Assembly (NCBI GenBank): GCA_029865225.1
Contig: JAOUHJ010000011.1
Coordinates: 1 to 64,000, forward strand
From: Nitrospira sp.
GTDB taxonomy: Bacteria > Nitrospirota > Nitrospiria > Nitrospirales > Nitrospiraceae
Direction: 5' to 3'
DNA length: 64,000 nucleotides
Below the pieces are notes generated by a model. The model was not told where the DNA came from and made no database searches. It worked only from the letters and a program-made list of their open reading frames with translations. Position 1 is the first letter of the stretch. Each line of letters begins with the position of its first letter. Below, in pieces: positions 3,936 to 28,571 of this stretch. The position numbers and the translations under genes were made by a program.

Positions 3936-6900
3936 CTACTTGGCTCTGGAGGATCGAGGCGCTGACTTGGTTGCAGCGGGACCGGCATGACCAACCGGGA
4001 TTTCTGCCACGACGTCGAACTCAGGATCTCCATCTTGGTCCTTCCCGTCATGCCCAACACTGTACAGGACGCCTTTTTTCATATTGACCAACATCGGCAG
4101 CCCTGTGTAGGGATCATAAAAGCTCTGTCCAGCTTTGGCGAGGCGGGCAAGAAGATCGCCATCGGCAGGACCACGCCGGAGCCAAGCCTGTAAACTCGCC
4201 AGTCGGAGATGCGCATCGGTATCTACCACAAGCCCGTTATATTCATCCCAGCGAGGAAGTGGTTTGAGACCCACCATGTTTTCGATCGGATTGGTGAAGT
4301 AGTCCATGAACGTGGCTGCGGGAAACTGGACATAGCTCTTCCACTTGGGCAACGAACCGTATTGCCCTTCCCCGGCAGCCTTGTACGAGGCCTCATAATA
4401 CTTCGCGTAATCATTCAGCCTGCGCTGTTTGGGTAACGGAAGAAGTGAGGCTACCGTAGTCGAGGCCGTTTGGGCTTCCGCTCGTGCGGTTTTCAGCTGT
4501 TCATCATACGTTTTCGACGCCGTCACCAGCTCGCTCTGCATGGGCCAGCGGATGGACAACTCTCCCTGGTCAAGCGGGCGGAGTAACTTTGTTAGTCGCC
4601 CCAGATGGGTTCCATCGAAATCTGACCGAACCAACAGTCCTGAGGCCACGGCGATATCGTCATTGATCGCCTGCAGGGCCAGCATTTTCATCGGAAGGGT
4701 TCTCGCCTGGCTTAACGCGATGCGCCAGGCCTCCATATCCGTCTCCAACCGACTGACACCCTGATCCATGTTTTGGCCAAACCCATCGGCGACATGGAGT
4801 TGGTGTGCAAATACCACCGTCCCACAGGGTAAGCTGACGGGCTTCCCATACCCCCAGTCTTCGAAGGGTAGTTTTTGCCACCGCCCGTAGCGATCAAGCA
4901 TGAGCTGATGCTCGTTCCCCAATCCTTTAATGGTACCCTGCTTAGATTTGAATTGACCGATGGGATCTGGTCCACGAAACCATTTCCTCATAATATCGGC
5001 CGATGCATGTGGCCGTTCGCCCGTACCAGACACCGGATTACCAAAGCACGTCAGCGCTGCCTGCCCACCGTTCGTATTCGAGCTCGGCGCACCGCTTCCC
5101 TGTTCCGGATCTTGTCCTTCTGAGGCATCTATTCCGAGCAGGAACAGATAGCCATTTTTCTTGGAGTCCGACAAGGTTTGCTGAGGAATGGTCGTGAAAC
5201 TTTGGAAGGTTTGAGACGGCGGCTCCTCCATAATCACCCATGTCAACGCGATTGCCCCGATGGCCAATGCAACAACCAAGGCAGACACCACCAGGAGCCC
5301 AATTGCGGTCGCCACAATGGAGCGAGTCGTAGAGAAGCATGCGCGAATAAAGCCCCCCAGGCCGGTGGCGATTGGGCTGAAGATGGAGCCAGCTTTCCGA
5401 TTGGATGCGGCCTCTGCTGGACGTTGTCTCGTCTCTGTCTTTCTGGAATCAGTGGACGATTCAAAGAGCACATCAACAGCAGTAGCAGCAGAAGAAAATG
5501 GCCGATTCGTTTCATGTGTCTCGGCGGGGATAGGGGACATGGGAGGCACCGGAGCAGCTTTCGGCTCCTCGACGAAGCGAATCGATGCTCCTGTGTCTTG
5601 CCATTCTTTTTGATGAGCCACCGGCTGACGTATCGGAGTTCCGGGCTCAACGATCTCCTCCGTGACTTCTTGATTGTCCAGAGCTGAACTCTCTCCCGTT
5701 TCTAGCCCGACAGATGGAGTCGATGGAACTTCTGGCTCCGGCTGGAGGAGCTTCGGCTCCATTCGCATCGTCTCACTAATCACTTCTTGGGGATGTTGTG
5801 GAGCTTGCCAGGGTGGCTCTAGAGAATCCTCGCGAGCTGGAAGCTGACTGCCTGCCGGTGTACATTCCTCTTCTATTCTCAAGACAGAGTCGCCGCTCTC
5901 GAGCTGTATTTCGTCCTGAGCTGTCGTCCGCTCTTCACCGAGAGGTTCTTCGGCCGACAATGGCTCTGCAGCACCACCGACAGGAGCCTCCGATACCGAT
6001 CGCTCCTCCACCAGGGAAACGGGAAGCGAGTCTTGCTGCTCCTCCCCCATCGAGACTGATTCCTCTTCTATCGACGGGGAAGGCTGTCTCACATCGACAA
6101 CCGCCGAGTCGGCCTCAAGCGAACACGACGAGTCTTGCGGTTGAGACGATTCAGGATCTTGTACGAGCGAGAATGACTCTTCCTCTGGGGAAGCTGTCTC
6201 AAGCTGAGCCGCCCCTGAGCTCTGGGATGCACCCACAACAGCAGCCGCACGATCGCTATCAACTTGATCAGGTGAGTCGGGTGGGTGGACTGATTCAGAA
6301 TCTTGAAGGATGGAAAAAGATTCTGGTTCATGGGAAGCGGAAGGTGGTACGACGGTTTTGTCAGCGAACTCCTCAGCGGTTGACGCCTTATCTGTGTCGT
6401 GTGTGTCATCTGACTGAGTGACAGTGAGGCCCGACGTGTCCTCTATGTGAGAGTCCACCTCCGCTGGTGGAATTGATACTGCCGAGTCCTGGACCTGATC
6501 CCATGGCATCGGAGCAATTCGTGTTCCAGTTGAAGTTGCATCCCGAAACACGAACGGCGGACCCGTTTCATGATTCTCTTCGGATTGGCTTCCTGGCGGT
6601 AGATCCTGGTCAGTAAGACCTCCCAGGGTTTCAGCTGCAGGCCCCTTATTTTCAGACGAACTCTGTTCAGGTGAAACCGTATTCCCTGACTCTTGATTCC
6701 CGAAATTCCATGCCCTATTAAACATAGCTTCCCAGGAGAATCCTGGTTGTAGCCATGGCTGAGAGCTTTCACCACGTCCTGGTCCCGACGTTGATGAGTC
6801 GTCCGAGCCCGAGCGGTTTGCAACAGTCGCTTCTTGAGAGTCAGTCTCGACAGATTGTGAAAGGGTAGCCTTCGTGTTTCGCAAATCGGTTGCTTCTACA

Positions 6901-8171
6901 GTCGGCGACTCCACTGCCGAGAATGTGAACTCAGGGCCTTCTTCCATCTCCCGGGAAGCCGAGATGTTGATATCCGGATTATCCGCTGATGCATCACTTG
7001 GTGGCGGATCGAGAACCTTCTCGTTTCCGAGTGCCAAAGTTTCTGATCTACCAGGGGCATCGATACGATGCTCTTCCCGGTCTTCCCCCGACAGCCCCCC
7101 CTGCTCCTGGCTCGCAGCCACATCGCCTCTCGGCACAATCTGCTCGGTTTCTCCCTGCGTCACGGAGATCTCTCCGACAGAGTCCGGTAGCGCGCCTTCT
7201 GATGATAGGCCATGTTCTGGAGCAGTCGACCCGGAAGGACCGTCTATGGTTGTTTCTGAGAGAACTGTGACAACTTCTTGGTTGTGACTTTCTGCTGAGA
7301 TTTCATTCTGTACATTGCGAGTCTGCTCTTCCCTTGACGGAGAATACTGTGTGTCCGCAGGCACTGTCTGGTCTTGAGTGGAAGGCTTTTCCTCCCAGGA
7401 AACCTCCTCCGAAGCGGTCAGGGGAGAAGGCTGTGGTGCAGAACCAGATGTAGCGGTTACTTCCTGAGGATTCGGAAGTTCCCATGGCATAGGGTCAGTT
7501 ATGGGATCAAGCTGAACCGGGCCAGCTGACGCTGCGGCAGTCGAATCAGCTGCCGGAGTCGAGGTTGCTTCCGGATCTCCGGTAGGCTGGCGAGCTAGTA
7601 GATCTCCAGTTTGGGCATCGAAGAATGACGCTAGCCGGAAAGCCACGGGACTGACTGGAGCCAGATCTAGAATTTTTTTGTAGAGCTGAGACGCCTGCTG
7701 AGAATTTTCGGTATCAGGATCTTCGATCAGGATGTCGACGGCCTTGCCGTATTCGGTAACGGCCTCCAGTGTATCGCCCTTCTCCTCATAGATCCGCCCA
7801 AGTTTTTCCAAATAGGGAACACACCGTTGTGCGGCTGTTAAATACTCGCGAAGTAACGATTCCGCGAGCCAGTAGTCCTGGCGTTGAAAGGCTTCATCGA
7901 TGAGCGAGTCAAACGCTTGTCGTGCTGGAATGAGACTCCCAAGACGGAGATGGAGCGTGGCAAACAGCCTCCTCGCCTCCATATTCCCTGCGTCGAGGGC
8001 GAGCAGCTCTTTAAGGACTGCAGAAGATCGCGCATACTTGCCCGCATTCATCTGGGTGATGGCTTCTTCAAGAAGGGCACTCTTCTTGCTGTAGCCAACA
8101 ACACCACGCTTCTGACTACGGACAGTCTGAGTTTTGTCTGATTTTATAGGTGATTTCTTATTCCAACGCAC
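3936..8171 (-). CDS. Giant TPR - acidic linker - transmembrane - GspG-like-tail protein
   Basis: 1411 residues starting at a GTG. Residues about 30-190 form tetratricopeptide-like helices (ARSSAVLKELLALDAGNMEARRLFATLHLRLG). Residues about 190-940 are low in complexity, rich in Glu, Ser, Pro and Thr, and probably disordered; short PMPW motifs recur and one block of about 38 residues is duplicated near residues 613 and 661. A single hydrophobic helix follows at about 950-980. The last 430 residues are a folded domain ending in DPYTGLPM...LYSVGHDGKDQDGDPEFDVV, which resembles the calcium-loop end of GspG-like pseudopilins. The likely topology is cytoplasmic TPR and linker with the C-terminal domain outside. 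Proximity to a secretin suggests, but does not prove, a role in envelope export or pili. No known family covers the whole protein. Confidence 0.75.
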   Translation of the reverse strand: MRWNKKSPIKSDKTQTVRSQKRGVVGYSKKSALLEEAITQMNAGKYARSSAVLKELLALDAGNMEARRLFATLHLRLGSLIPARQAFDSLIDEAFQRQDYWLAESLLREYLTAAQRCVPYLEKLGRIYEEKGDTLEAVTEYGKAVDILIEDPDTENSQQASQLYKKILDLAPVSPVAFRLASFFDAQTGDLLARQPTGDPEATSTPAADSTAAASAGPVQLDPITDPMPWELPNPQEVTATSGSAPQPSPLTASEEVSWEEKPSTQDQTVPADTQYSPSREEQTRNVQNEISAESHNQEVVTVLSETTIDGPSGSTAPEHGLSSEGALPDSVGEISVTQGETEQIVPRGDVAASQEQGGLSGEDREEHRIDAPGRSETLALGNEKVLDPPPSDASADNPDINISASREMEEGPEFTFSAVESPTVEATDLRNTKATLSQSVETDSQEATVANRSGSDDSSTSGPGRGESSQPWLQPGFSWEAMFNRAWNFGNQESGNTVSPEQSSSENKGPAAETLGGLTDQDLPPGSQSEENHETGPPFVFRDATSTGTRIAPMPWDQVQDSAVSIPPAEVDSHIEDTSGLTVTQSDDTHDTDKASTAEEFADKTVVPPSASHEPESFSILQDSESVHPPDSPDQVDSDRAAAVVGASQSSGAAQLETASPEEESFSLVQDPESSQPQDSSCSLEADSAVVDVRQPSPSIEEESVSMGEEQQDSLPVSLVEERSVSEAPVGGAAEPLSAEEPLGEERTTAQDEIQLESGDSVLRIEEECTPAGSQLPAREDSLEPPWQAPQHPQEVISETMRMEPKLLQPEPEVPSTPSVGLETGESSALDNQEVTEEIVEPGTPIRQPVAHQKEWQDTGASIRFVEEPKAAPVPPMSPIPAETHETNRPFSSAATAVDVLFESSTDSRKTETRQRPAEAASNRKAGSIFSPIATGLGGFIRACFSTTRSIVATAIGLLVVSALVVALAIGAIALTWVIMEEPPSQTFQSFTTIPQQTLSDSKKNGYLFLLGIDASEGQDPEQGSGAPSSNTNGGQAALTCFGNPVSGTGERPHASADIMRKWFRGPDPIGQFKSKQGTIKGLGNEHQLMLDRYGRWQKLPFEDWGYGKPVSLPCGTVVFAHQLHVADGFGQNMDQGVSRLETDMEAWRIALSQARTLPMKMLALQAINDDIAVASGLLVRSDFDGTHLGRLTKLLRPLDQGELSIRWPMQSELVTASKTYDEQLKTARAEAQTASTTVASLLPLPKQRRLNDYAKYYEASYKAAGEGQYGSLPKWKSYVQFPAATFMDYFTNPIENMVGLKPLPRWDEYNGLVVDTDAHLRLASLQAWLRRGPADGDLLARLAKAGQSFYDPYTGLPMLVNMKKGVLYSVGHDGKDQDGDPEFDVVAEIPVGHAGPAATKSAPRSSRAK

Positions 8172-8525: not shown

Positions 8526-8909
8526 CTAACTACAAACTCGGTAGTTTTCATACTGCTCGGAAGTCAGCCGTGATCCAATTTCGAATATATACCCAGACGG
8601 GAGTGATGCCGCAGACCCATGACTTTGCTTGCTCAACACCCTTCCGCAGCGGAGGCATCGCTGCTCCCCCTCCCAGGACACGGGACCAACAAGATGCCGA
8701 ATGGGTACGAAGGATTCCCCCGTGGTCTCAGGTATCAGAACGCGGCGTACCTCAGCCAAAAGACGCCAGGCATGCTCTGATGACAGCACTTCTGGACCGT
8801 CCAAAACGAGCACGAGGAGTCCCAAAGCACGTACAGGGTCTCCTTTCGCCTCGTTGAGTAATTGTTGAGCGAACACCCAGATCTTATCGTGTACGATCCC
8901 CTGATCCAC
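8526..8909 (-). CDS. Small hypothetical protein with a CxxC zinc-ribbon-like segment
   Basis: 127 residues. The N-terminal half looks helical (WVFAQQLLNEAKGDPVRALGLLVLVLDGPEV). The C-terminal half has RCLRCGRVL followed by a conserved-looking GYIFEIGSRLTSEQYENY and a final Cys, which could make a small metal-binding ribbon. No family recognised. It is alone between the giant TPR gene and the divergent secretin gene. The coding call rests on frame length and protein-like composition only. Confidence 0.45.
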   Translation of the reverse strand: MDQGIVHDKIWVFAQQLLNEAKGDPVRALGLLVLVLDGPEVLSSEHAWRLLAEVRRVLIPETTGESFVPIRHLVGPVSWEGEQRCLRCGRVLSKQSHGSAASLPSGYIFEIGSRLTSEQYENYRVCS

Positions 8910-9162
8910 GCCTGACCTCTTCTTGACATCCCCCCTTCCCTATCGGTCTTTTTGCGAAAGTATTTAACGGCTTTGCGCCTTCTCCCAGACTGAATCATTC
9001 CCCCGCTGACATCCTGCGCTAAAACTGGGGTGGAGACGTAGGGTTGGGGTCGGTCAGGACCACCAGCCAGAACGTGTAGGACGGTAACCGAAGCTTTTGA
9101 ACGCCGATCCTTCCGGCTTTCATTCGAAAAACTTTATCCTGGTTGTGTCTTTCGATCTCCCT

Positions 9163-10815
9163 ATGGTACCGTCAAATACTCGTATCCAAGGATTGGCAAC
9201 ACCACGGAATTACAAGTCCATCGTGCGATACCCCTTAAGCCCCAGACAGTCATTGGAAACTTGCGGGTGGCTTCGGCTTTGTTTAGCTGGGCTGATCCTC
9301 CTCGCTTTCGGCCTGCCTGCCTTATTTTCTATTGGGTCTTCACAGGCCTGGGCCGCCCAACCGATCAAGGTTGCGCTTGATTTCAATGATGTGGAGATCC
9401 CTGTTTTCGTTCGTTTTATCGGGGAGCTTACCGGGAAAAACTTCGTTCTGGATGAAACGATCAAGAAGCAAGGAGGGAAGATTTCGGTCTTCTCCCCCAG
9501 TAAGGTTTCGTCTGAACAGGCGTTCACCATGTTCGTAGCTGCGTTAGAAGCAGCTCGGATGGCTGTCGTCCCCAAAGGAGACAATCTCTACCAGATCGTA
9601 CCGATGGGCGATCTTCCGCCGGAACGTGGTGTGTTCGTCTATAAACTCAAACATGCCAATGCAACGGACCTGGCCGCCGTACTGACCAATTTGGTGGCAC
9701 GTTCACAAACTGTGGCCCAGATCACTCCTGGCACCAGACCACCGATTAGGCCCCTTACGGAATTCGAGGCACCGGTCCAAGTATTTGCCGATAAGGCAAC
9801 TAATTCGGTCATCATTAGTTCGACCAAGGTCGCTTGGGGCCATCTCCGATCAGTAATTCATGATTTAGATATCCGGCGCAAGCAGGTCTTTGTGGAAGCC
9901 GTCATCCTGGAGGTTCAAGTTGACCGGCTGCGACAAATCGGCACCGACCCGGTTCAGATTCTCGGTGCTGGAAAATCTGGATTTGTGCAAGGAATTGGCG
10001 GTTTCAATAGAGCACCGGAAGACCTGGCCGCCGTAGCACAGGCTATCAGCGGCATCGCGGCAGGTGGAGCCACCGGTGGAGCAACCAGCGTATTAAACAC
10101 GCTCAATATTCGTGCCTTCATGAATTTGCTGATGAATCTCACAGACACGAATATCCTTTCGACTCCCCAAGTTCTAGCTGCGGACAATCAAAAGGCCAAG
10201 ATCGTTGTCGGTGAAAATCGACCATTTCCGACCGGGCAAGCCCAAGGCATTACGGGTGGAACCCTCGTAACCATAGAACGGAAAGACGTTGGAGTGACAT
10301 TAGAATTAACTCCCCAGGTCCTAGAAGATGACTTGATTCGGCTCGAGATCAAGCAAGAGATTACAGCCATCGCGGAAAATGTGGCTCAAACCATTGGATC
10401 GGGGACTGCGAGCATCCCTGTCGGCCCAACAACCACCAAACGATCAATGGAAACCACCACAGTTGCCCAGGATCAACAGACCCTCGTGGTAGGCGGGCTC
10501 GTGCGTGACAATATTACCCTCAGCGAAAGAAAAGTTCCTCTGTTGGGTGATATCCCCTGGTTGGGATGGTTCTTCAAATCTCAAAATCGCCAGGTTGAGA
10601 AGCTGAACCTTCTTGTCTTCCTCACTCCACATCTGATTCGAGACGATGCAGACATGATTGAGTTGAACGCGCGAAAGGCCAGAGATGTCAATTCGCTCCA
10701 GCGCGATAACCGCATTGAGGAGCCCACAAAACTTAAACAGGATGTCCTGGAGCGCTTAGAACTGCCCTCGACGGTTCCTCCTTCGCCATCTGACAAACCA
10801 AACATCACTCCCTAA
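9163..10815 (+). CDS. Secretin of the GspD/PilQ family
   Basis: About 550 residues. A signal peptide (WLRLCLAGLILLAFGLPALF...AWA) leads into an N0-like domain (ALDFNDVEIPVFVRFIGELTGKNFVLDE), N1-type ring domains, and a C-terminal secretin beta-barrel domain with VPLLGDIPWLGWFFKS, the hallmark of outer-membrane secretins, followed by LNLLVFLTPHLI. It should form the outer-membrane channel of a type II secretion or type IV pilus system. It is somewhat shorter than classical GspD. The frame is open from a TTG at 9097; I chose the ATG at 9163, but a GTG at 9226 would give a more usual signal peptide. Other secretion parts in the window are pilC/gspF and the pilSR-like pair; the ATPases and pilins are not here. 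Confidence 0.88.
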   Translation: MVPSNTRIQGLATPRNYKSIVRYPLSPRQSLETCGWLRLCLAGLILLAFGLPALFSIGSSQAWAAQPIKVALDFNDVEIPVFVRFIGELTGKNFVLDETIKKQGGKISVFSPSKVSSEQAFTMFVAALEAARMAVVPKGDNLYQIVPMGDLPPERGVFVYKLKHANATDLAAVLTNLVARSQTVAQITPGTRPPIRPLTEFEAPVQVFADKATNSVIISSTKVAWGHLRSVIHDLDIRRKQVFVEAVILEVQVDRLRQIGTDPVQILGAGKSGFVQGIGGFNRAPEDLAAVAQAISGIAAGGATGGATSVLNTLNIRAFMNLLMNLTDTNILSTPQVLAADNQKAKIVVGENRPFPTGQAQGITGGTLVTIERKDVGVTLELTPQVLEDDLIRLEIKQEITAIAENVAQTIGSGTASIPVGPTTTKRSMETTTVAQDQQTLVVGGLVRDNITLSERKVPLLGDIPWLGWFFKSQNRQVEKLNLLVFLTPHLIRDDADMIELNARKARDVNSLQRDNRIEEPTKLKQDVLERLELPSTVPPSPSDKPNITP

Positions 10816-10932
10816 CACATCATCTGGGCAGCGAGAGTCCATTTAGAAAACGTAGCGAGCTCCCTCCACGACCCGGAGTTGGTATGCCAGCGGCCCCTCC
10901 TCTGAGGAATGGCACCATGTCCACTGCCTGTA

Positions 10933-10947
10933 TAGACTCCGAGTCTA
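10933..10947 (+). promoter_or_regulatory. Short perfect palindrome just upstream of a PilZ ribosome site
   Basis: TAGACTC-C-GAGTCTA ends next to the CGGAGGG ribosome site (10948-10953) of the PilZ gene starting at 10962. It could be a repressor half-site pair or a small RNA hairpin acting on translation; the stem has seven pairs but a one-base centre, so as RNA the loop must open. Confidence 0.35.
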
Positions 10948-10961
10948 CGGAGGGCCTAGGA

Positions 10962-11315
10962 ATGACAGACACAACCGTAAATTGGCGAATCCATCGTCGG
11001 CTTCCCGTGGCATATCCTGTGATATTTGGAGGCGCCCCGTTTGTGGGAGAAGGCATCGTTTCCAACCTTTCCCTTTCCGGTTGCTCAGTGACCTGTGAGC
11101 GGACGGTCCTCACGGGAAGCTACGTAAAGCTGAGCGTCCTCTTGCCAGACCCCACATCCTCTCTGTTCATCGAGTTGGGGAAGATCCGTTGGGTTCACAA
11201 GAATACCTTCGGTGTTGAGTTTATTCGACTACCGGCGATCACCCGACATCGACTGGATCGCGTGGTATCTGAACAATTCCCCCTCGATATGAACCTGCCC
11301 CTCGCATCAGTCTGA
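10962..11315 (+). CDS. Single-domain PilZ protein (c-di-GMP effector candidate)
   Basis: 117 residues forming one PilZ domain. The N-terminal arginine motif is RIHRRLPV and the second motif is NLSLSGCSV, followed by the strands ending in IRWVHKNTFGVEF. Both c-di-GMP contact motifs (RxxxR and [DN]xSxxG) are present, so binding is plausible. The frame extends up to 10884, but the ATG at 10962 has the only good ribosome site (CGGAGGG, nine bases upstream). It follows the secretin gene on the same strand, which fits a role in pilus or secretion control, by inference. Confidence 0.85.
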   Translation: MTDTTVNWRIHRRLPVAYPVIFGGAPFVGEGIVSNLSLSGCSVTCERTVLTGSYVKLSVLLPDPTSSLFIELGKIRWVHKNTFGVEFIRLPAITRHRLDRVVSEQFPLDMNLPLASV

Positions 11316-15097: not shown

Positions 15098-16006
15098 CTA
15101 TGAACCGGTGCAGGTTTCTGCCACAAAGACTTTGAACGTCTGTTCATTTAAAAAGAAGGCTTGGGCAGAACGAGCTCCGGCCTCGGTAGAAAAGACACCA
15201 AATACGGTCGCTCCGCTTCCGGAAAGTAGCGCAACCTCAGCCCCTTGAGATATGAGGTGCTGCTTGATATTACGGAGCAGCGGGTAGGCCTTGAACACCG
15301 GTACCTCAAAGTCATTCTCCGCTATCTCCAGTATCTGTTTCCAGTTGAGCTCAGGAGATGTCTCCAGCACCAGGTGTGAACGAGATACCGGGGCCACACC
15401 GGTTCGGCTCTCCGAGAGTTGCTGATACGCCCATTTCGTCTCGATTGGGAAACCCGGGTTGACCAAAACAACCCATCGACTATCCATGATGCGGACCGGC
15501 GTCACTCGTTCTCCTCGTCCAGCCACCGTCGCGGAGGGAGCGAACGAGAAGAAGGGCACATCACTTCCCAGGGTTTGCCCGACTTGCGCCATCAGTTCTC
15601 TTGACCACCTCAACCCTAAGATCCGATTTAGTCCCATGATCGTAGCTGCGGCATCGCTGCTGCCTCCACCGAGGCCAGCCCCCATCGGGATTCGCTTGGT
15701 AAGGACAATATCTAATCCCACGACTCGTCCGCTCCGCTCAAGAACTGCCGCTGCCGCACGAGACACGAGGTTGGAACGATCCGCCTTCAGTGATGGATCG
15801 TCACAGCGCAGGTTGATGACCGAGTGGCTATGATTGATGGAAATCGAAAGCTCGTCTTCTAATCGCACAGTTTGCATCAGGGACCACAGATTGTGGTAGC
15901 CATCCGGTCGACGGTCGAGAATACGGAGGACGAGATTAATCTTGGCAGGTGCGGAAACAGTAACTTGGGTTGGCGGAACGCCGGCGTCAGGAGAAGTGTT
16001 AGTCAC
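15098..16006 (-). CDS. ispE: 4-diphosphocytidyl-2-C-methyl-D-erythritol kinase
   Basis: 302 residues of the GHMP kinase family. It phosphorylates CDP-ME in the MEP isoprenoid pathway. The start has SAPAKINLVLRILDRRPDGYHNL and the ATP loop is IPMGAGLGGGSSDAAATI. Its first codons overlap the end of the response-regulator gene by eight bases, so it is the third gene of the kinase-regulator-ispE set, and it ends just before the prs promoter. Confidence 0.96.
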   Translation of the reverse strand: MTNTSPDAGVPPTQVTVSAPAKINLVLRILDRRPDGYHNLWSLMQTVRLEDELSISINHSHSVINLRCDDPSLKADRSNLVSRAAAAVLERSGRVVGLDIVLTKRIPMGAGLGGGSSDAAATIMGLNRILGLRWSRELMAQVGQTLGSDVPFFSFAPSATVAGRGERVTPVRIMDSRWVVLVNPGFPIETKWAYQQLSESRTGVAPVSRSHLVLETSPELNWKQILEIAENDFEVPVFKAYPLLRNIKQHLISQGAEVALLSGSGATVFGVFSTEAGARSAQAFFLNEQTFKVFVAETCTGS

Positions 16007-17384
16007 GACCTCCTTTTATAGCATACTTTTCCAGCCGATACCGAAACGATCTCGTGTTCAGACGGAGCATGCGGGCAGCTTTCTTTTTGACCCATTTTGA
16101 TCGCTCCAGCGCTTTGAGTAACAGGTCCTTTTCAATACCGTTGATCAGGCCTTCAAGGTCCACCCCTTCGTCAGTCAGATCGAGCGGCATGGCAGACGGC
16201 TGCGATGGCGTCGTGGGCCGGTGGAGCCATCCGTGCACATCACCCTCGGTAACCGACCCTTCAGTGGAAAAAGCGACCACGCGTTCGATCAGATTCTCCA
16301 ATTCTCGAACATTGCCCCGCCATTCGTGGTCTAGGAGCACGTGCATAGCCTCTGCGCTGATTACAGGCCTAGACTTACCGCTCTCCTTTGAAAATCGGTC
16401 AAGAAAGTGATTGACCAGCAGCGGAATATCACCGGTTCGCATCCGCAACGGAGGGAGCCGGATGGGAATCACGTCCAGTCGGTAGTATAAATCCTCCCGG
16501 AATGACCCGTCCGCGACCGCTTTCTCCAAATCTTTATTCGTCGCTGCAACGATGCGCACATCGACCTTGATATCCTGATTGCCGCCCACTCGTCGGAATT
16601 CACGTTCTTGGATGACCCGTAACAGCTTCACTTGAATCGTGGGAGTGGTATCACCGATCTCGTCAAGGAAGATGGTCCCTCCATTCGCAATCTCGAACAG
16701 GCCTGCTTTGTTGGAGATGGCTCCTGTGAACGATCCTTTCATATGTCCGAACAACTCACTTTCCAGCAGGGTTTCAGGTACCGCACTGCAGTTCACGGCC
16801 ACAAACGGAAGGGTACTTCTCGCGCTGTTGTAGTGAATGGCGCGTGCGACCAATTCTTTTCCCGTGCCACTTTCGCCACAAATCAATACATTGCTTTTTG
16901 AATCGGCGACTTTGCGCACGACGTCGAAGACCTTCTGCATCGCCTCGCTTTGGCCCACCAACTGTGCAAAGGAGGATTGGCTGGCCATTTCACGCTTCAG
17001 CAACATGTTTTCGGTCGTAAGCCGCCGCTTCTCCAATGCGTTCCGGATGATCAGCTGAACCTCATCGACCTGGAACGGTTTCGTCAAATAATCATAGGCA
17101 CCGTGTTTCATCGCTTCGACGGCAGAATCGGCCGTCGCAAACGCCGTGATGATGAGAACGACGGTCTCCGGTGAGGCAGATTTCACCGCCTTGAGCACCT
17201 CCATTCCGTCGATCTTGGGCATCCGCAGATCGGTAATCACGAGATCAAAGATCTCTTTCTGGACAAGCTCGACCGCCTCCTCTCCATCTGTCACGCTGGT
17301 GACGAAGTACCCCGCTCGCTTGAGCATGATACTCAGGACTTCGCGCAAGCTTGGTTCGTCATCGACGACTAGGATCTTTTCCAC
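15999..17384 (-). CDS. Sigma-54-dependent response regulator, PilR/NtrC type
   Basis: 461 residues: receiver domain (phosphoacceptor Asp52 in LVITDLRMP), AAA+ domain with Walker A GESGTGKE at 170-177 and the sigma-54 contact loop GSFTGA at 217-222, then a Fis-type helix-turn-helix at the end ([33 protein letters not shown]). The GSFTGA variant instead of GAFTGA is the form I associate with PilR. It overlaps its partner kinase gene by 16 bases. Likely targets are sigma-54 promoters of pilus genes; that is inference from family resemblance and the nearby pilC. Confidence 0.9.
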
Positions 17385-19063
17385 GGTTCCCTACCTTCAT
17401 GCCATAGCCGTACCCCGGCATCCGCCGTACGAGGCAGGCACACTCCAAATGTTGTCCCTTGACCTTCTAGGCTCTCTACTTTGATCCACCCTCCATGAAG
17501 GTCGACGATACGATGGACGGCCGCCAACCCTAATCCGGACCCTCGTTGCTTGGTGGTAAAGAAGGGAAGAAAGATTTTGTTGAGATTTTTCTTTGGAATC
17601 CCTTCGCCGGTGTCATGGAATGAGACTTCAATCACGTCGACCTTGCACCCTCCGACATCAACTTTTCTCCGCCCAGCTGTGATCGAGAGCTCCCCTCCGG
17701 AAGGCATCGCATCGAATGCGTTGACCGCCAAGTTCCAGAACACCTGTTTCATTTGATCCTGATCAACTTGGGCCCACAATGCTTCGGCACAGGGGACTGC
17801 CCTAATTGAAATACCCCTACGACTCCCTGCTTCATGTTGTACCAGATCGAGGGTCTCAGCAAGGACTTTGTTTAAATTGTGCTCAGCCAGATTGAGTGCC
17901 GGGGGTCTCGCATACTGAAGAAACTCGGTGATGATCGCATCCAACCTCGTCGCTTCCCGAATGGCGATGTCCATCAGTCGCTGACTGGTCTCATCCGCCT
18001 GGAGATCCTTCCGAAGCATTTGCATTGCGCCAGCAAGCGCACCTAGCGGGTTGCGAATTTCATGTGCCATGCCTGCCGACATTTCTCCCAGGCTGGCAAG
18101 CCACTGTTTGCGTCGCATTTCCTCTTCCAGATCACGTATCTGTGTGAGATCTTTGAACACTCCCACCAATCCCTTTTGTTCCCCTTGCTCGTGCAATGGT
18201 CCAAGTGTCATCCCCAAGATCAATCGATTGCCGTCAGACCGTTTGCATTCGACGTCAAATCGGATGTTGGTCGTGATATCTCCCCTGCGATTGTCCTCCA
18301 GCTGTTTGGGATGCCAATCGAACACGTCCTGCCAAGGGCGTCCTCGGACTTCCTCAAAATCATACCCGGTGGCCTCTTGAGCCGCTGGATTGAACGAGGT
18401 AATCCGTCCGTGTTCATCCGCCGTGAAGACCCCGCTGCTGATACTATGAACGATATTTTCATGGAACATCCGTAGATGGCTCAGTCCCTGCTCCTTTTCA
18501 CGAAGGGACAGATCGGCCTGTCCGAGTTGATCTGCAAGCGCACCGCTCAAGAACCCGACGACCAGGAAGGCTAAACTATACACACCAAAGGTTTGCAGGG
18601 CTTCAGCGGCACTGAGTCGAGTGGGCAGCAACCAGCCCCATCCCTCCGCCAATCCATGGAGCTGCAAGTTCGTGAGCAGGCCAAAGAGGATGATGCACAA
18701 GCTCGCAGTCAGTAACCCCACACGCCGGCGAGGGACCAGACTGGCGACCGTCACGCTGATGACATACAGCACGGCGAATGGGCTTTCGATTCCTCCGGTC
18801 CGTGCGATGAGGATCGTCTCGAGCAAGAAATCGATGAGGACCTGAGCCCACGCAAATTGGACGAGCGTGTCTGGGTGGGATAGCTTTCGAATCACAAGCG
18901 CGTACAGAATAGTGGCCGCATAAGTAAAAATGATCAGTGCATAGAAGGTTTCAACCCGCTCGCCTTTTGTGACCTGGAAGGCAAGAGAGAGTCCCAGCAA
19001 GAGCGTCACGATGACGACCCGCCAGCCCATCAACCAATAGATTCTAGCCTTAATGTCGCCCAC
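17369..19063 (-). CDS. Membrane sensor histidine kinase, PilS-like
   Basis: 564 residues. About six hydrophobic helices fill the first 190 residues, followed by a PAS domain (GVFTADEHGRITSFNPAAQEATGYDFEEVRGRPWQDVF), a HisKA dimerisation helix with MAHEIRNPLGALAG (His near 334), and a HATPase domain with N, G1 and G2 boxes (NLAVNAFDAMPSGG, DTGEGIPKKNLNKIF, GSGLGLAAVHRI). The layout is that of PilS. It is translated with the following regulator gene, which starts inside its 3' end. Confidence 0.9.
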   Translation of the reverse strand: MGDIKARIYWLMGWRVVIVTLLLGLSLAFQVTKGERVETFYALIIFTYAATILYALVIRKLSHPDTLVQFAWAQVLIDFLLETILIARTGGIESPFAVLYVISVTVASLVPRRRVGLLTASLCIILFGLLTNLQLHGLAEGWGWLLPTRLSAAEALQTFGVYSLAFLVVGFLSGALADQLGQADLSLREKEQGLSHLRMFHENIVHSISSGVFTADEHGRITSFNPAAQEATGYDFEEVRGRPWQDVFDWHPKQLEDNRRGDITTNIRFDVECKRSDGNRLILGMTLGPLHEQGEQKGLVGVFKDLTQIRDLEEEMRRKQWLASLGEMSAGMAHEIRNPLGALAGAMQMLRKDLQADETSQRLMDIAIREATRLDAIITEFLQYARPPALNLAEHNLNKVLAETLDLVQHEAGSRRGISIRAVPCAEALWAQVDQDQMKQVFWNLAVNAFDAMPSGGELSITAGRRKVDVGGCKVDVIEVSFHDTGEGIPKKNLNKIFLPFFTTKQRGSGLGLAAVHRIVDLHGGWIKVESLEGQGTTFGVCLPRTADAGVRLWHEGREPWKRS

Positions 19064-19265
19064 GGATTGACACTCCTGCTAGAAAAGGCCTTTCGCTTTT
19101 CATCGCCAGCCATCTACGATTCGAGTGGTTTCATCACGTGGAAGTATACTGAGTGCGCGTGCAGGCTGGTTCTACGCGGATAGAGTGGGTCACTACGATG
19201 CGGGCACGTCGACCATCCCGGCTGAGATTACCAAGCTGCCTGGTAGATGTGACTCGCCAATCGGT

Positions 19266-20480
19266 TTAACCGATCGCGGACGCCATCGTAAAGATCGGCA
19301 AATACATGGCCACCACGATGAATCCGACCGTCGTACCCAGGAACACCATCATCATGGGCTCCAACAGCGCCGTGAGATTTCCGACTGCCTCATCGACTTC
19401 ATCTTCATAAAAGTCGGCGATCTTTCCGAGCATGGTGTCCAACGCGCCGGTCGACTCTCCGACTGAAATCATGTGCGTCACCATTTTAGGGAACGTACCG
19501 CTTTTTGCCAGAGGATCTGCGATGGTTTTCCCTCCGCTGATGCTGACTTTAGCGTCGAGCAGAGCCCCTTCCACAACTTTATTGCCTGACGTTTTTGCGC
19601 AAATCGTCAGCGCATCCAACAAGGGAACCCCGCTTGCCAGCAGGGTGCCGAGCGTTCTCGTAAATTTCGCCACCGACGCTTTCCTGATCAGGTCTCCGAA
19701 CACGGGGAGCTTCAGCAACAGCTTATCGATCGCCAGCCTCCCTTGTGGGGTCGCATAGTACTTTTTGATCGACACCACCGTCCCGATGATGACGGCGAGA
19801 ATGATGTACCAATTGCCTTGCACGAAGTTGCTCATATCGATGACGAGCTGCGTCGGCGCGGGCAAGGCCATCTTTCCGCCGGACATTTCCTTGAACATCT
19901 TTTCGAATACCGGGATCACCCAGATCATCAACACGGTAATGACGATCGCCGCGATACCGACGATAGCCGCAGGATAGACCATGGCACTCTTGATCTGCCC
20001 CTTGAGTTTCATCGCCTTTTCGATGTGCTTCGAGAGGCGGCTCAAAATGGTATCGAGCAACCCGCCCACTTCACCGGCGTGGACCATGTTGACGTACAAA
20101 TCATCGAAGATTTTCGGATGCTTGTGGAGCGCATCGGAAAAAGTCGAGCCTCCTTCGACCTGGACTCGGATCTCACCCACGGATTTTCTCAATGCTGCGT
20201 TTTCCGATTGCGTGGAAAGGATTTCGAGGCATTGAATTAGCGGCAGCCCGGCATTGATCATCGTCCCGAATTGCCTCGTAAATACCACCAGATCTTTTTC
20301 ACTCACGCCGCTGCCGAAACTGAGGCTGAACCTCTCCTTGGCAGCCTTTTCCTCAAGACTGGTCACGACCACGCTTTGCTTGCGTAATTGCTCAACGGCC
20401 TCATCGCGTGACTTGGCGACGAGCTCACCTTTTTTCACCGCACCCGACCGACTCCGCCCAACGTACGCAAACGTGGCCAT
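19266..20480 (-). CDS. pilC: Type IV pilus / type II secretion inner-membrane platform protein (PilC/GspF)
   Basis: 404 residues, the family length. Two tandem T2SF domains are seen, each starting near FTRQFGTMINAGLPLIQCLEIL and FTRTLGTLLASGVPLLDALTI, with three membrane helices (near 170-190, 215-235 and 375-400). The N-terminal domain AYVGRSRSGAVKKGELVAKSRDEAVEQLRKQ is also typical. It has a strong promoter just upstream and appears to be transcribed alone, apart from its pilus partners. Confidence 0.93.
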   Translation of the reverse strand: MATFAYVGRSRSGAVKKGELVAKSRDEAVEQLRKQSVVVTSLEEKAAKERFSLSFGSGVSEKDLVVFTRQFGTMINAGLPLIQCLEILSTQSENAALRKSVGEIRVQVEGGSTFSDALHKHPKIFDDLYVNMVHAGEVGGLLDTILSRLSKHIEKAMKLKGQIKSAMVYPAAIVGIAAIVITVLMIWVIPVFEKMFKEMSGGKMALPAPTQLVIDMSNFVQGNWYIILAVIIGTVVSIKKYYATPQGRLAIDKLLLKLPVFGDLIRKASVAKFTRTLGTLLASGVPLLDALTICAKTSGNKVVEGALLDAKVSISGGKTIADPLAKSGTFPKMVTHMISVGESTGALDTMLGKIADFYEDEVDEAVGNLTALLEPMMMVFLGTTVGFIVVAMYLPIFTMASAIG

Positions 20481-22853: not shown

Positions 22854-23366
22854 TTACCGGGCAGGAGTCGACTCACCTTCCATCTTTTCCTCACGGATGG
22901 TGTTATGCTCCTGGTAGGCTTCGCTGGCCTCGATATCCAGCATCCTCTCAAACGTATTCAATGTCGCGCGCATTCGTTCCACCATGAGTAACCGTTGCTT
23001 CTGCAGGACGGCAAGGTCTCGCTGCGTATTTCCCAGCTCGGCACGAGCCTGTCGAAACAGCTCACCGGCTTTCAACTCTGCTTCTTTGACGATCAGATCG
23101 GCATCTCGTTGAGCACTTCGCTTGACATCGTCCGCCAACGACTGTGCCGACACCAGCGTATTGGATAACGTCGCCTCAGTTCGTTTGAGTTCCGACACTT
23201 GCTGCTCAAGCGAGTCAATACGGTCACGCAACGTCGCATTGTCACGATTCAAAAACTCGACCGTTTGCGAAATGTCCTCGAGAAAGCGGTTGACCTCATC
23301 ACGGTCATAGCCACGAAGTTTGACCTGAAAAACCATCTGTTGAATGTCGAGTGGTGTAATCTTCAT
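22854..23366 (-). CDS. divIVA: DivIVA-domain protein
   Basis: 170 residues. The N-terminal motif ITPLDIQQMVFQVKLRGYDRDEVNRFLEDI is the DivIVA lipid-binding start; the rest is coiled coil (LRDRIDSLEQQVSELKRTEATL and on). DivIVA-like proteins mark curved membranes and poles. Its place behind ftsZ, yggS, proC and yggT matches the order seen in Gram-positive and some other phyla. The start ATG at 23366 follows yggT by 21 bases. Confidence 0.9.
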   Translation of the reverse strand: MKITPLDIQQMVFQVKLRGYDRDEVNRFLEDISQTVEFLNRDNATLRDRIDSLEQQVSELKRTEATLSNTLVSAQSLADDVKRSAQRDADLIVKEAELKAGELFRQARAELGNTQRDLAVLQKQRLLMVERMRATLNTFERMLDIEASEAYQEHNTIREEKMEGESTPAR

Positions 23367-26074: not shown

Positions 26075-27271
26075 TTAGTCTGCTTGCTTACGAAGAAACG
26101 TCGGGACGTCCCACTCATCCTCACCTGTCAGTGCAGCTCGATCCGCCGACTCTCGTGCTTCACTTATACGCCTCAAATATGTCGGGCGGTCGAGATCCTT
26201 TATCGGTCGCTCTGTCCCAAGGGAGGCGACGACGCCGGCCAGCACTGGTTGGATCGGCTTGGTCAGCCGATTTGGTGCTCGATCTGCCTCAGTCCCGGCA
26301 ATCGCCAGATTCTCGTCCCGTTCAAATCCGGTGGCAATGACCGTAATGATCAATTCCTCACCAATGTCTGGATTAATGACCTGCCCGACGATGATGTTCG
26401 CCTCGGGATCCGCCGTCTGCTGAATAATAGACGCTGCTTCCTCAATCTCATGCAACGACATGCTGGGGCCTCCAGTAATATTGAGGAGTACTCCGCGGGC
26501 TCCCTCAACACTTCCCTCCTCCAGGAGAGGGCTGCACATCGCTTTTTGTGCGGCTTCGATCGCCCGATTCTGTCCCTGAGCAACGCCCATCCCCATTACC
26601 GCACGACCAGTATGCGACATCACGGTGCGGACGTCGGCGAAATCCACATTCACATGACCGGTTGTCGTGATGACATCGGCGATGCCTTGAATGGCCTGAC
26701 GGAGGACATCGTCCGCCACCTTGAATGCTTCGAGGAGCGGAGTGGCCTTATCCACAATGCCCAGCAGTCGCTGGTTAGGAATGACGAGCAAGGTGTCGAC
26801 ATGTCGACGTAGTTCTCGGATTCCTTCTTCGGCATGCTTGTGTCGACGCTGCCCTTCATACTGAAAGGGCTTCGTGACGACACCGACCGTGAGAATCCCC
26901 ATCTCTCGGGCAATGCTGGCCACAATCGGCGCGGCACCGGTTCCTGTTCCTCCACCCATTCCGGCGGTGACAAAGACCATATCCGCACCGTCGATACATT
27001 CACGGATATGCTCCCGACTTTCGAGCGCCGCATCCCGTCCGATTTCGGGTTTCGCCCCTGCGCCCAGGCCACGAGTCCGATCGGGCCCGAGTTGTATCTT
27101 ATAGGGGGCCAAGGATCGATCGAGCGCCTGAAGGTCGGTGTTACTCGCGATAAAATCCACACGAGCCAATCCGGAGGTGATCATGGTGTTAATGGCGTTG
27201 CATCCGGCCCCGCCGATTCCGATGACTTTGATACGGACCGGCGACAACACATCTTCTTGAAATGAGAACAT
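26075..27271 (-). CDS. ftsZ: Cell division GTPase FtsZ
   Basis: 398 residues from the ATG at 27271 (the frame runs on to 27451, but that part overlaps ftsA and is not FtsZ-like). The tubulin signature [12 protein letters not shown], the N-terminal [15 protein letters not shown], and a conserved C-terminal peptide [11 protein letters not shown] are all present. A variable linker of about 60 residues joins them. Located 58 bases after ftsA. Confidence 0.98.
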
Positions 27272-27329
27272 TGAGCCACCTCCTCCGATCACCCCGCAGG
27301 ACGACCACCGGCCTCCTGCCGGACCAAGG

Positions 27330-28571
27330 TTAAAAGATCTCCAGCACCTTCTTCGTCCATCCAAACATACGCGCCCAAGTTCCTCCATTGCGAAGCCCGG
27401 CTGTTTCCAATTCGTCGACATGTCGCCGACCGTGCAGCAACAAGCCCACACCGGTCGAATGGCTGGGATGACTCACTTGATCCCGAAGTGCCCCAACACC
27501 TGAGGGTACCCCTCGTCGAGCTGGTAGGTTTAAAACTTTTTCGGCCGCGTCAGGCATTCCGTCTAACAACGAGGTGCCTCCGGTGATCACCACGCCGGCA
27601 CCCAATATTCCTTCGTAGCCGGCACGGGTAATTTCCCTCCGCACCAGTTCAAACATTTCATCCACGCGGGGCTCCAAAATTTCGGCAACATCCCGCCGAG
27701 AAAATGTGCGCGCCGGGCGGTCCCCGACGGACAGCACTTCCACGATCTGATGGCCCGTCAGCAATTCCGTTCGGGCAATGCCATATTGCGTCTTGATCCT
27801 CTCTGCCTCGGTCTGCGACGTGATCAGGCCGAATGCCAAATCTCTGGTTAAATTCTGCCCCCCGATCGGAAGAACCGCTGAGTGCCGGATACTGCCGTCC
27901 AAGAAGATCGCGAGATCCGTGGTCCCTCCGCCCAAATCGACCATCGCCACGCCCAAGTCGCGCTCTTCTTGACTCAGCACAGCCTCACTTGAAGCAAGCG
28001 GCTGCAGGATGATGTCCACGACATCGAGCCCCGCTCGATTCACACATTTTACAATGTTCTGCGCAGAGGTCACAGCCCCAGTGATGACATGGACATTGAC
28101 TTCCAGTCGATGCCCTGACAAGCCCAATGGCTCGCGGACCCCTTCCTGCCCATCCACCATATATTCTCGGGGCAAGACGTGAAGGATCTTCCGTTCGTGA
28201 GGGATCACGGCCAAGGTACGCGCGCTTTCGATCGCCCGGTGGATATCCTCACGGGTCACCTCAGCTCGCTTGAGCGCCACCACACCCTTACAGTTTTCGG
28301 CGGAAATGTGGCTACCCGCGATGCCTGTATAGACCGAGTTAATCTGGACACCGGCCAGCAACTCCGCCTCTTCGACCGCCTTCTTGATCGATTCAACCGT
28401 GCTTTCGATATCAACCACGACACCTTTCCGTAGACCTCGTGAGGGACTCGACCCGACACCGATGATATTGAGCCCGCCGGCATCGGCAACTTCGGCGACG
28501 ATTGCGCAGATCTTCGTCGTTCCGATGTCGAGTCCAACAAGGATGTGATCTCGCTTCGACACGGCCATCAC
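27330..28571 (-). CDS. ftsA: Cell division protein FtsA
   Basis: 413 residues of the actin-like ATPase family: [15 protein letters not shown] at the start, [14 protein letters not shown] and [14 protein letters not shown], with the SHS2 (1C) insert. The C-terminus [12 protein letters not shown] is the amphipathic membrane-targeting helix that ties FtsZ to the membrane. Its start overlaps the ftsQ stop by four bases. Confidence 0.97.

Follow-up and report, generated by a model that had tools for sequence, protein, structure and literature searches.

Within a 64,000-nucleotide stretch of the Nitrospira sp. assembly GCA_029865225.1 (contig JAOUHJ010000011.1, positions 1 to 64,000 of the forward strand; hereafter the window), a gene on the minus strand at 3936..8171 encodes a 1411 aa protein, here termed the hub protein. 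The hub is tentatively considered, at a confidence a little short of even, to be a membrane-anchored landmark or scaffold for secretin-bearing envelope machines, namely type IVa pili and the type II secretion system (T2SS); it would act in the manner of FimV/HubP while being independently built and arranged in the reverse order. The architecture, topology, motifs, cysteine pair, conservation, adjacency to gspD and co-distribution with secretins are supported by sequence or prediction, and the protein would be localised to a pole or focus, bind clients and influence the assembly of secretins.

The hub gene starts at a GTG codon and forms an open frame of 1411 codons; the plus strand over 3936-8171 is interrupted by many stops. 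A set of 76 full-length copies was gathered, 69 of them distinct, and counts by relative are given below over these 69; because the frame and the architecture are preserved in all of them, the hub frame is not a chance open reading frame (ORF). The first-pass annotation of the window had proposed both the 1411-residue ORF and an order of tetratricopeptide repeats (TPR), acidic disordered linker, one membrane helix and outer domain; the ORF is confirmed, on the minus strand, and the order agrees with AlphaFold modeling, charge and hydropathy. Named relatives of the protein are nearly all from Nitrospira or Nitrospirae metagenome bins. Two contigs labelled Anaerolineales and Nitrosospira (L066, L075) bear an outer domain that is 69-70% identical, probably through errors of binning or labelling.

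The TPR domain (residues 28-185; 7617..8090, minus strand) is predicted to be cytoplasmic and is modelled by AlphaFold with nine helices; the predicted local distance difference test score (pLDDT) exceeds 90 in most blocks. The Pfam matches to TPR models are all below cut-off, five of the seven listed being at E<0.01; a sub-threshold match to Alkyl_sulf_dimr is the other one found for the full-length hub, and all such matches are N-terminal. Tandem TPR helical pairs are present, engineered TPRs in the PDB match at up to 1.8e-14, and the mean column identity of residues 1-192 is 78% among 17 diverse relatives. The genome encodes a further TPR protein, of 712 aa (L157:6203-8341; G000:C40), with an N-terminus related to SgmX; its residues 243-399 are homologous to the hub TPR domain (hhalign 99.2%, 33% identity). 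The N-terminus of the 712 aa protein scores 101.5 bits against the SgmX model NF052243, far below the cut-off of 1800, and the hub itself is unmatched by the same model at E<=0.1. SgmX is not known to have a membrane or periplasmic part. In Myxococcus it stimulates type IV pilus formation and the polar localisation of PilB (passages of PMC7519303); the likeness to the hub runs through the shared TPR block of the 712 aa protein.

The linker (about residues 195-930; 5382..7589, minus strand) is assigned as acidic and disordered from its net charge, low complexity and low pLDDT, the last being mostly under 50 over residues 201-550 (the modelled part ends at 572). Its length ranges from 569 to 1063 aa across the relatives, and its net charge is negative in 69/69 with a mean of -0.125 per residue. 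Short motifs are conserved within it, all encoded on the minus strand. MPWE at residues 228-231 (7479..7490) has the pattern [MLIV]PW[ED], of which 142 copies occur in 68/69 linkers; shuffled linkers carry it in a mean of 2.0 of 69, with a maximum of 5. An FSW-type motif, FSWEAMFNRAWNF, at residues 478-490 (6702..6740) forms a local helix in the model with a pLDDT of 69, and its pattern [FL][ST]Wxx[IVML][FL] is found in 60/69 linkers (shuffled mean 0.12). MPWDQV at residues 555-560 (6492..6509; pLDDT 60-67) follows PW[DE][QHR][VA], present in 56/69 linkers (shuffled mean 0.25), and the juxtamembrane motif AVDVLFESS at residues 898-906 (5454..5480) follows A[VA][DE][VA][LF]F, present in 53/69 (shuffled mean 0.08). 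Since the patterns were picked after 21 of the proteins had been aligned and inspected, and the relatives are not independent, these statistics are to be read as conservation and not as independent recurrence. AlphaFold raises the pLDDT at the motif sites to 58-69, compared to about 42; the rise hints at local order or docking but may simply mirror conservation. In kinesin light chain, W-acidic motifs bind the TPR groove (passages of PMC13078783). The hub is alike in combining short tryptophan-acidic linear motifs with a TPR groove, whereas kinesin light chain is eukaryotic and unrelated, and the hub motif, MPW[ED], would dock by analogy.

The membrane helix (about residues 952-981, N-terminus inside; 5229..5318, minus strand) is predicted by hydropathy; one hydrophobic segment is present in 66/69 relatives and two in 3/69. 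The net charge ahead of the helix exceeds that after it in 69/69, therefore by the positive-inside rule the TPR domain is predicted to be cytoplasmic and the C-terminus outside, as the first-pass annotation had supposed in placing the TPR in the cytoplasm with a single membrane crossing. The predicted periplasmic outer domain comprises about 410 residues (1003-1411; 3939..5165, minus strand) and is modelled as helical with a C-terminal beta hairpin (pLDDT 79; predicted template modelling score 0.82). It matches nothing in Pfam at E<=5, LysM included, and 0 chains of the PDB by profile search; Foldseek with the model returns none at E<=0.001 (best E 0.37), and the best Z of 7.2 from VIA is in a range deemed uninformative for helical models. 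No known fold was recognised for the domain by Foldseek, VIA or the PDB profile search. Exactly two cysteines are found in the outer domain of 69/69 relatives, the invariant Cys1042 (5046..5048) and Cys1116 (4824..4826), both on the minus strand; as the pair is conserved and lies outside the cytoplasm, this suggests a Cys1042-Cys1116 disulfide.

The final 45-60 residues or so of the hub contain DPYTGLPM...LYSVGHDGKD and are modelled as a short beta-hairpin; the form DPxTGxPM...YSVGxDGxD resembles the end of GspG by eye. The first-pass annotation had likened this end to a GspG calcium loop, and on such a reading the hub could be pseudopilin-derived, with a C-terminal calcium loop that joins or mimics the pseudopilus. 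This origin is highly improbable. The predicted fold of the C-terminal region is helical with a C-terminal hairpin, unlike a pseudopilin; the outer domain compared by profile with GspG from the same genome gives an hhalign probability of 0.1%, and 0/69 tails beat shuffled tails at p<=0.05 when set against that GspG. GspG has an N-terminal prepilin peptide followed by a hydrophobic helix, whereas the N-terminus of the hub is TPR and its hydrophobic segment is internal, beginning 425-472 residues from the C-terminus across the 69 relatives; the lack of a PDB match argues the same way, although the Foldseek and VIA lists would not decide the point by themselves. On the helical model, the profile comparison and the shuffle test, a pseudopilin origin of the tail is rejected and should be dropped from the earlier reading, while the membrane helix proposed alongside it stands as a prediction.

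The hub is better compared with the polar landmark proteins FimV/HubP, which are described in passages of PMC12918733 as having a periplasmic LysM domain, a transmembrane (TM) segment, an extensive acidic cytoplasmic region and a terminal TPR; FimV promotes PilQ multimer formation, and PilO/PilQ localisation requires FimV (passages of PMC5285504). The hub is alike in its single TM region, its long cytoplasmic region, which is acidic, disordered and variable in length, its terminal TPR and its periplasmic globular part, and also in a tie to secretin machines, which for FimV/HubP is drawn from passages of both papers. It is unlike FimV/HubP in that the order is reversed, the TPR being N-terminal and the periplasmic domain C-terminal, and in that the hub TPR, judged by the model tried, falls outside the C-terminal family of FimV; the likeness drawn is one of architecture. 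TIGR03504, which represents the FimV C-terminal TPR, has no match in the hub's own genome and matched one control genome below cut-off; FimV_core is unmatched in the own genome and likewise in the controls. Because two defining features of FimV, the periplasmic LysM-like domain and the C-terminal TPR of the FimV-domain family, are missing, the hub is not a FimV but plausibly works like one, by analogy.

A link to secretins is seen in gene order. The divergent neighbor of the hub gene encodes a secretin (9097..10815, plus strand; Pfam Secretin) whose best NCBIfam model is TIGR02517, GspD, at 342.3 bits, just below the cut-off of 351.35. Three secretins are encoded in the genome: the window secretin, PilQ in a pilMNOPQ-like cluster, and one in another T2SS/T4P-like (type IV pilus-like) cluster. 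Its T2SS operon (L154; G000:C133) contains gspC, E, F, G, further pseudopilin-like genes, L, M and K, and a secretin looked for in this operon was not found. As the operon is without a secretin and the window secretin best fits GspD, the latter most likely represents the orphan GspD belonging to the T2SS of this genome. The third secretin (L156; G000:C83) is a 767 aa protein with N-terminal TPRs within the further T2SS/T4P-like cluster. The gspD gene is normally located in the T2SS operon, therefore its placement beside the hub looks derived. Of the 72 genomes with hub and gspD on one contig, 69 have the two separated by no more than 10 kb and three have them far apart; in 10 further genomes the two genes are on separate contigs. 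In six genomes that belong to other genera (G002, G012, G021, G027, G031 and G077) gspD is within 10 kb of gspG. Among 21 loci compared, the window included, a secretin adjoins the hub in 16. The secretin is followed by a PilZ-domain gene (10884..11315, plus strand; PF07238), which is beside the secretin in 12/21 loci; the neighboring secretin and PilZ gene had been cited in favor of an envelope role, and the conserved adjacency of gspD strengthens that part of the first-pass annotation.

Such gene order could point to a narrower function, that of a T2SS-specific GspD assembly factor: in the manner of GspB/OutB, the hub would hold the pore to the inner membrane by binding the N-domains of GspD through its periplasmic domain, and its cytoplasmic part would couple this to regulation. 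In addition to the conserved adjacency to the orphan gspD, this account draws on the AMIN domain: none is shown in the window GspD and one is present in PilQ of the same genome, so GspD may need another anchor and a separate one such as the hub would make sense. T2SS secretins in general are said to be without AMIN domains in passages of PMC10653833, and GspB performs the secretin-anchoring job in Dickeya (PMC9239104); like the hub, GspB/OutB is an inner-membrane protein with a periplasmic domain and a GspD link. A search of the own genome for T2SSB (PF16537) gave no match, a negative that says little as the controls gave none either; the outer domain matches no Pfam model at E<=5. GspB is far smaller than the hub and is not known to have the large TPR and linker. 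Furthermore, 14/120 hub genomes have neither a gspD ortholog nor gspG, because of which a T2SS-only role is weakened, and in G012, G021 and G077 gspD is far from the hub and near gspG. The T2SS-specific account is considered quite unlikely.

The distribution of the hub was followed in 295 genomes drawn from the phylum and in 147 drawn from the window's family. The outer domain occurs in 76/295 phylum genomes, 75 of them in the family and one, a weak match, outside it (G183, E 4.7e-9). Within the family, 135/147 genomes have a match of some strength and 12 have none; counted at >400 bits, an author-set line that could misplace fragments, the hub is present in 120/147. The 15 genomes with weaker matches hold short paralogues, fragments at contig ends (e.g. 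G120, G008) or unclear cases. A secretin match, with GspD or PilQ as query, is absent from 8/147 genomes, and the hub is found in 0/8 of these (Fisher p 5e-7, uncorrected for phylogeny or genome size). PilQ is matched at E<1e-45 in 116/120 hub genomes, the exceptions being G097, G106, G109 and G126. The hub is carried by nearly all members of the family that have secretion or pilus pores in the outer membrane. This distribution is consistent with a factor in the service of secretin machines that is not essential to them.

The outer domain is also found apart from the rest of the hub. Short paralogues of about 460-540 aa consist of the membrane helix and the outer domain, have neither TPR nor linker, and adjoin a conserved ABC-transporter cluster in 11/11 family loci fetched (L137-L143, L145-L148). 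In L141, which was typed by Pfam, the cluster comprises a TonB receptor, an ABC ATPase, a FecCD permease, a periplasmic binding protein and a CobB/CobQ-type enzyme; by these gene assignments it is a cobalamin-type uptake cluster. The short paralogues are without cysteines at the positions aligned to Cys1042 and Cys1116. A distant single-helix relative from another family of the phylum (L144; G183:C121) has four cysteines elsewhere and adjoins SprT-like and DUF218 genes.

Several of these observations weigh against a landmark for secretin machines. The cobalamin-type cluster beside the short paralogue weakens the idea of a secretin-specific outer domain, which may anchor to the envelope more generally, and by comparison with FimV/HubP the domain is without LysM (Pfam, E<=5) or a known binding fold. 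In 5/21 loci no secretin is beside the hub, and the AIM24, M48 protease and amidohydrolase neighbors, the first two of which (one or the other) are near the hub in most of the 21 loci, have no known pilus role. Secretins occur without a hub match >400 bits in 19/147 genomes; two of these (G008, G120) contain cut-off hub fragments, and near-complete examples include G004, G011, G019, G031, G039 and G043. The 8 genomes without secretin are 1.6-2.7 Mb in size, and as genomes lacking both hub and secretin are small or reduced, the loss may be general.

The hub might then have no relation to secretins and serve as a general scaffold for the cell pole or for division, with the adjacency to gspD and the co-distribution being by-products of synteny and genome reduction. 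The AIM24, M48 and amidohydrolase genes of the conserved cluster, the small size of the secretin-less genomes and the uptake genes next to the paralogue are all consistent with this, as are a DivIVA-domain gene (22854-23366) and FtsZ (26075-27451) in the window; DivIVA is a polar or division marker elsewhere. This explanation is possible but unlikely, as the hub is retained in small genomes that keep secretins, e.g. G010, G009 and G140 (2.2-2.6 Mb), and its TPR domain shows kinship to the SgmX-like protein. Other genes around the hub include a small conserved ORF upstream of it (8526..8909, minus strand), which encodes 127 aa with a CxxC, is unmatched in Pfam and NCBIfam and has a related ORF in 11/21 loci. 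HDOD and GGDEF genes are near the hub in one locus (L042) and, like the PilZ gene and the TPR kinship to the SgmX-like protein, count toward the landmark reading. A sensor kinase, a sigma-54-type response regulator and a PilC/GspF-type gene lie at 15999-20480 of the window, about 8-12 kb from the hub. A scan for promoters and terminators upstream of the hub gene found sites no more numerous than in shuffles, and in plasmid records searched for relatives of the outer domain, of the short form from the other family and of the TPR domain, none were found.

For the landmark reading, it is hypothesized that the periplasmic domain, stabilised by the putative disulfide, would pin the hub at an envelope site through peptidoglycan or an outer-membrane pore such as GspD or PilQ, and that the single helix would span the inner membrane. 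The long acidic linker would extend into the cytoplasm, its several short tryptophan motifs binding clients or the TPR groove, and cytoplasmic regulators would be recruited by the invariant TPR domain at its distal end. The proposal of the first-pass annotation that the linker gathers partners at an envelope machine is, by analogy, a plausible role and is accompanied by the conserved adjacency to gspD. A more far-reaching version, which is a doubtful speculation, would make hubs a second, independently evolved class of envelope landmark, in which the W-acidic motifs dock into the TPR domains of the same or neighboring hubs to cross-link a membrane-tethered network; this network would gather GspD and PilQ machines and cyclic di-GMP regulators through a new disulfide-pinned periplasmic domain.

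No published description of a Nitrospira hub protein or of a Nitrospira FimV was found in the literature searched; the hub is an undescribed envelope protein, conserved across the family, with a testable landmark hypothesis that is worth following. The invariant TPR domain, the tryptophan motifs and the cysteine pair are immediate targets for testing. Some bacteria with type IVa pili are without FimV, as is stated for Myxococcus in passages of PMC10653833, and how secretin machines are placed in such bacteria is the question on which the hub bears. If the landmark reading is true, a reversed, family-wide hub in the nitrite-oxidising Nitrospira, with an outer domain that Pfam does not cover, would point to more than one origin of the landmark architecture.

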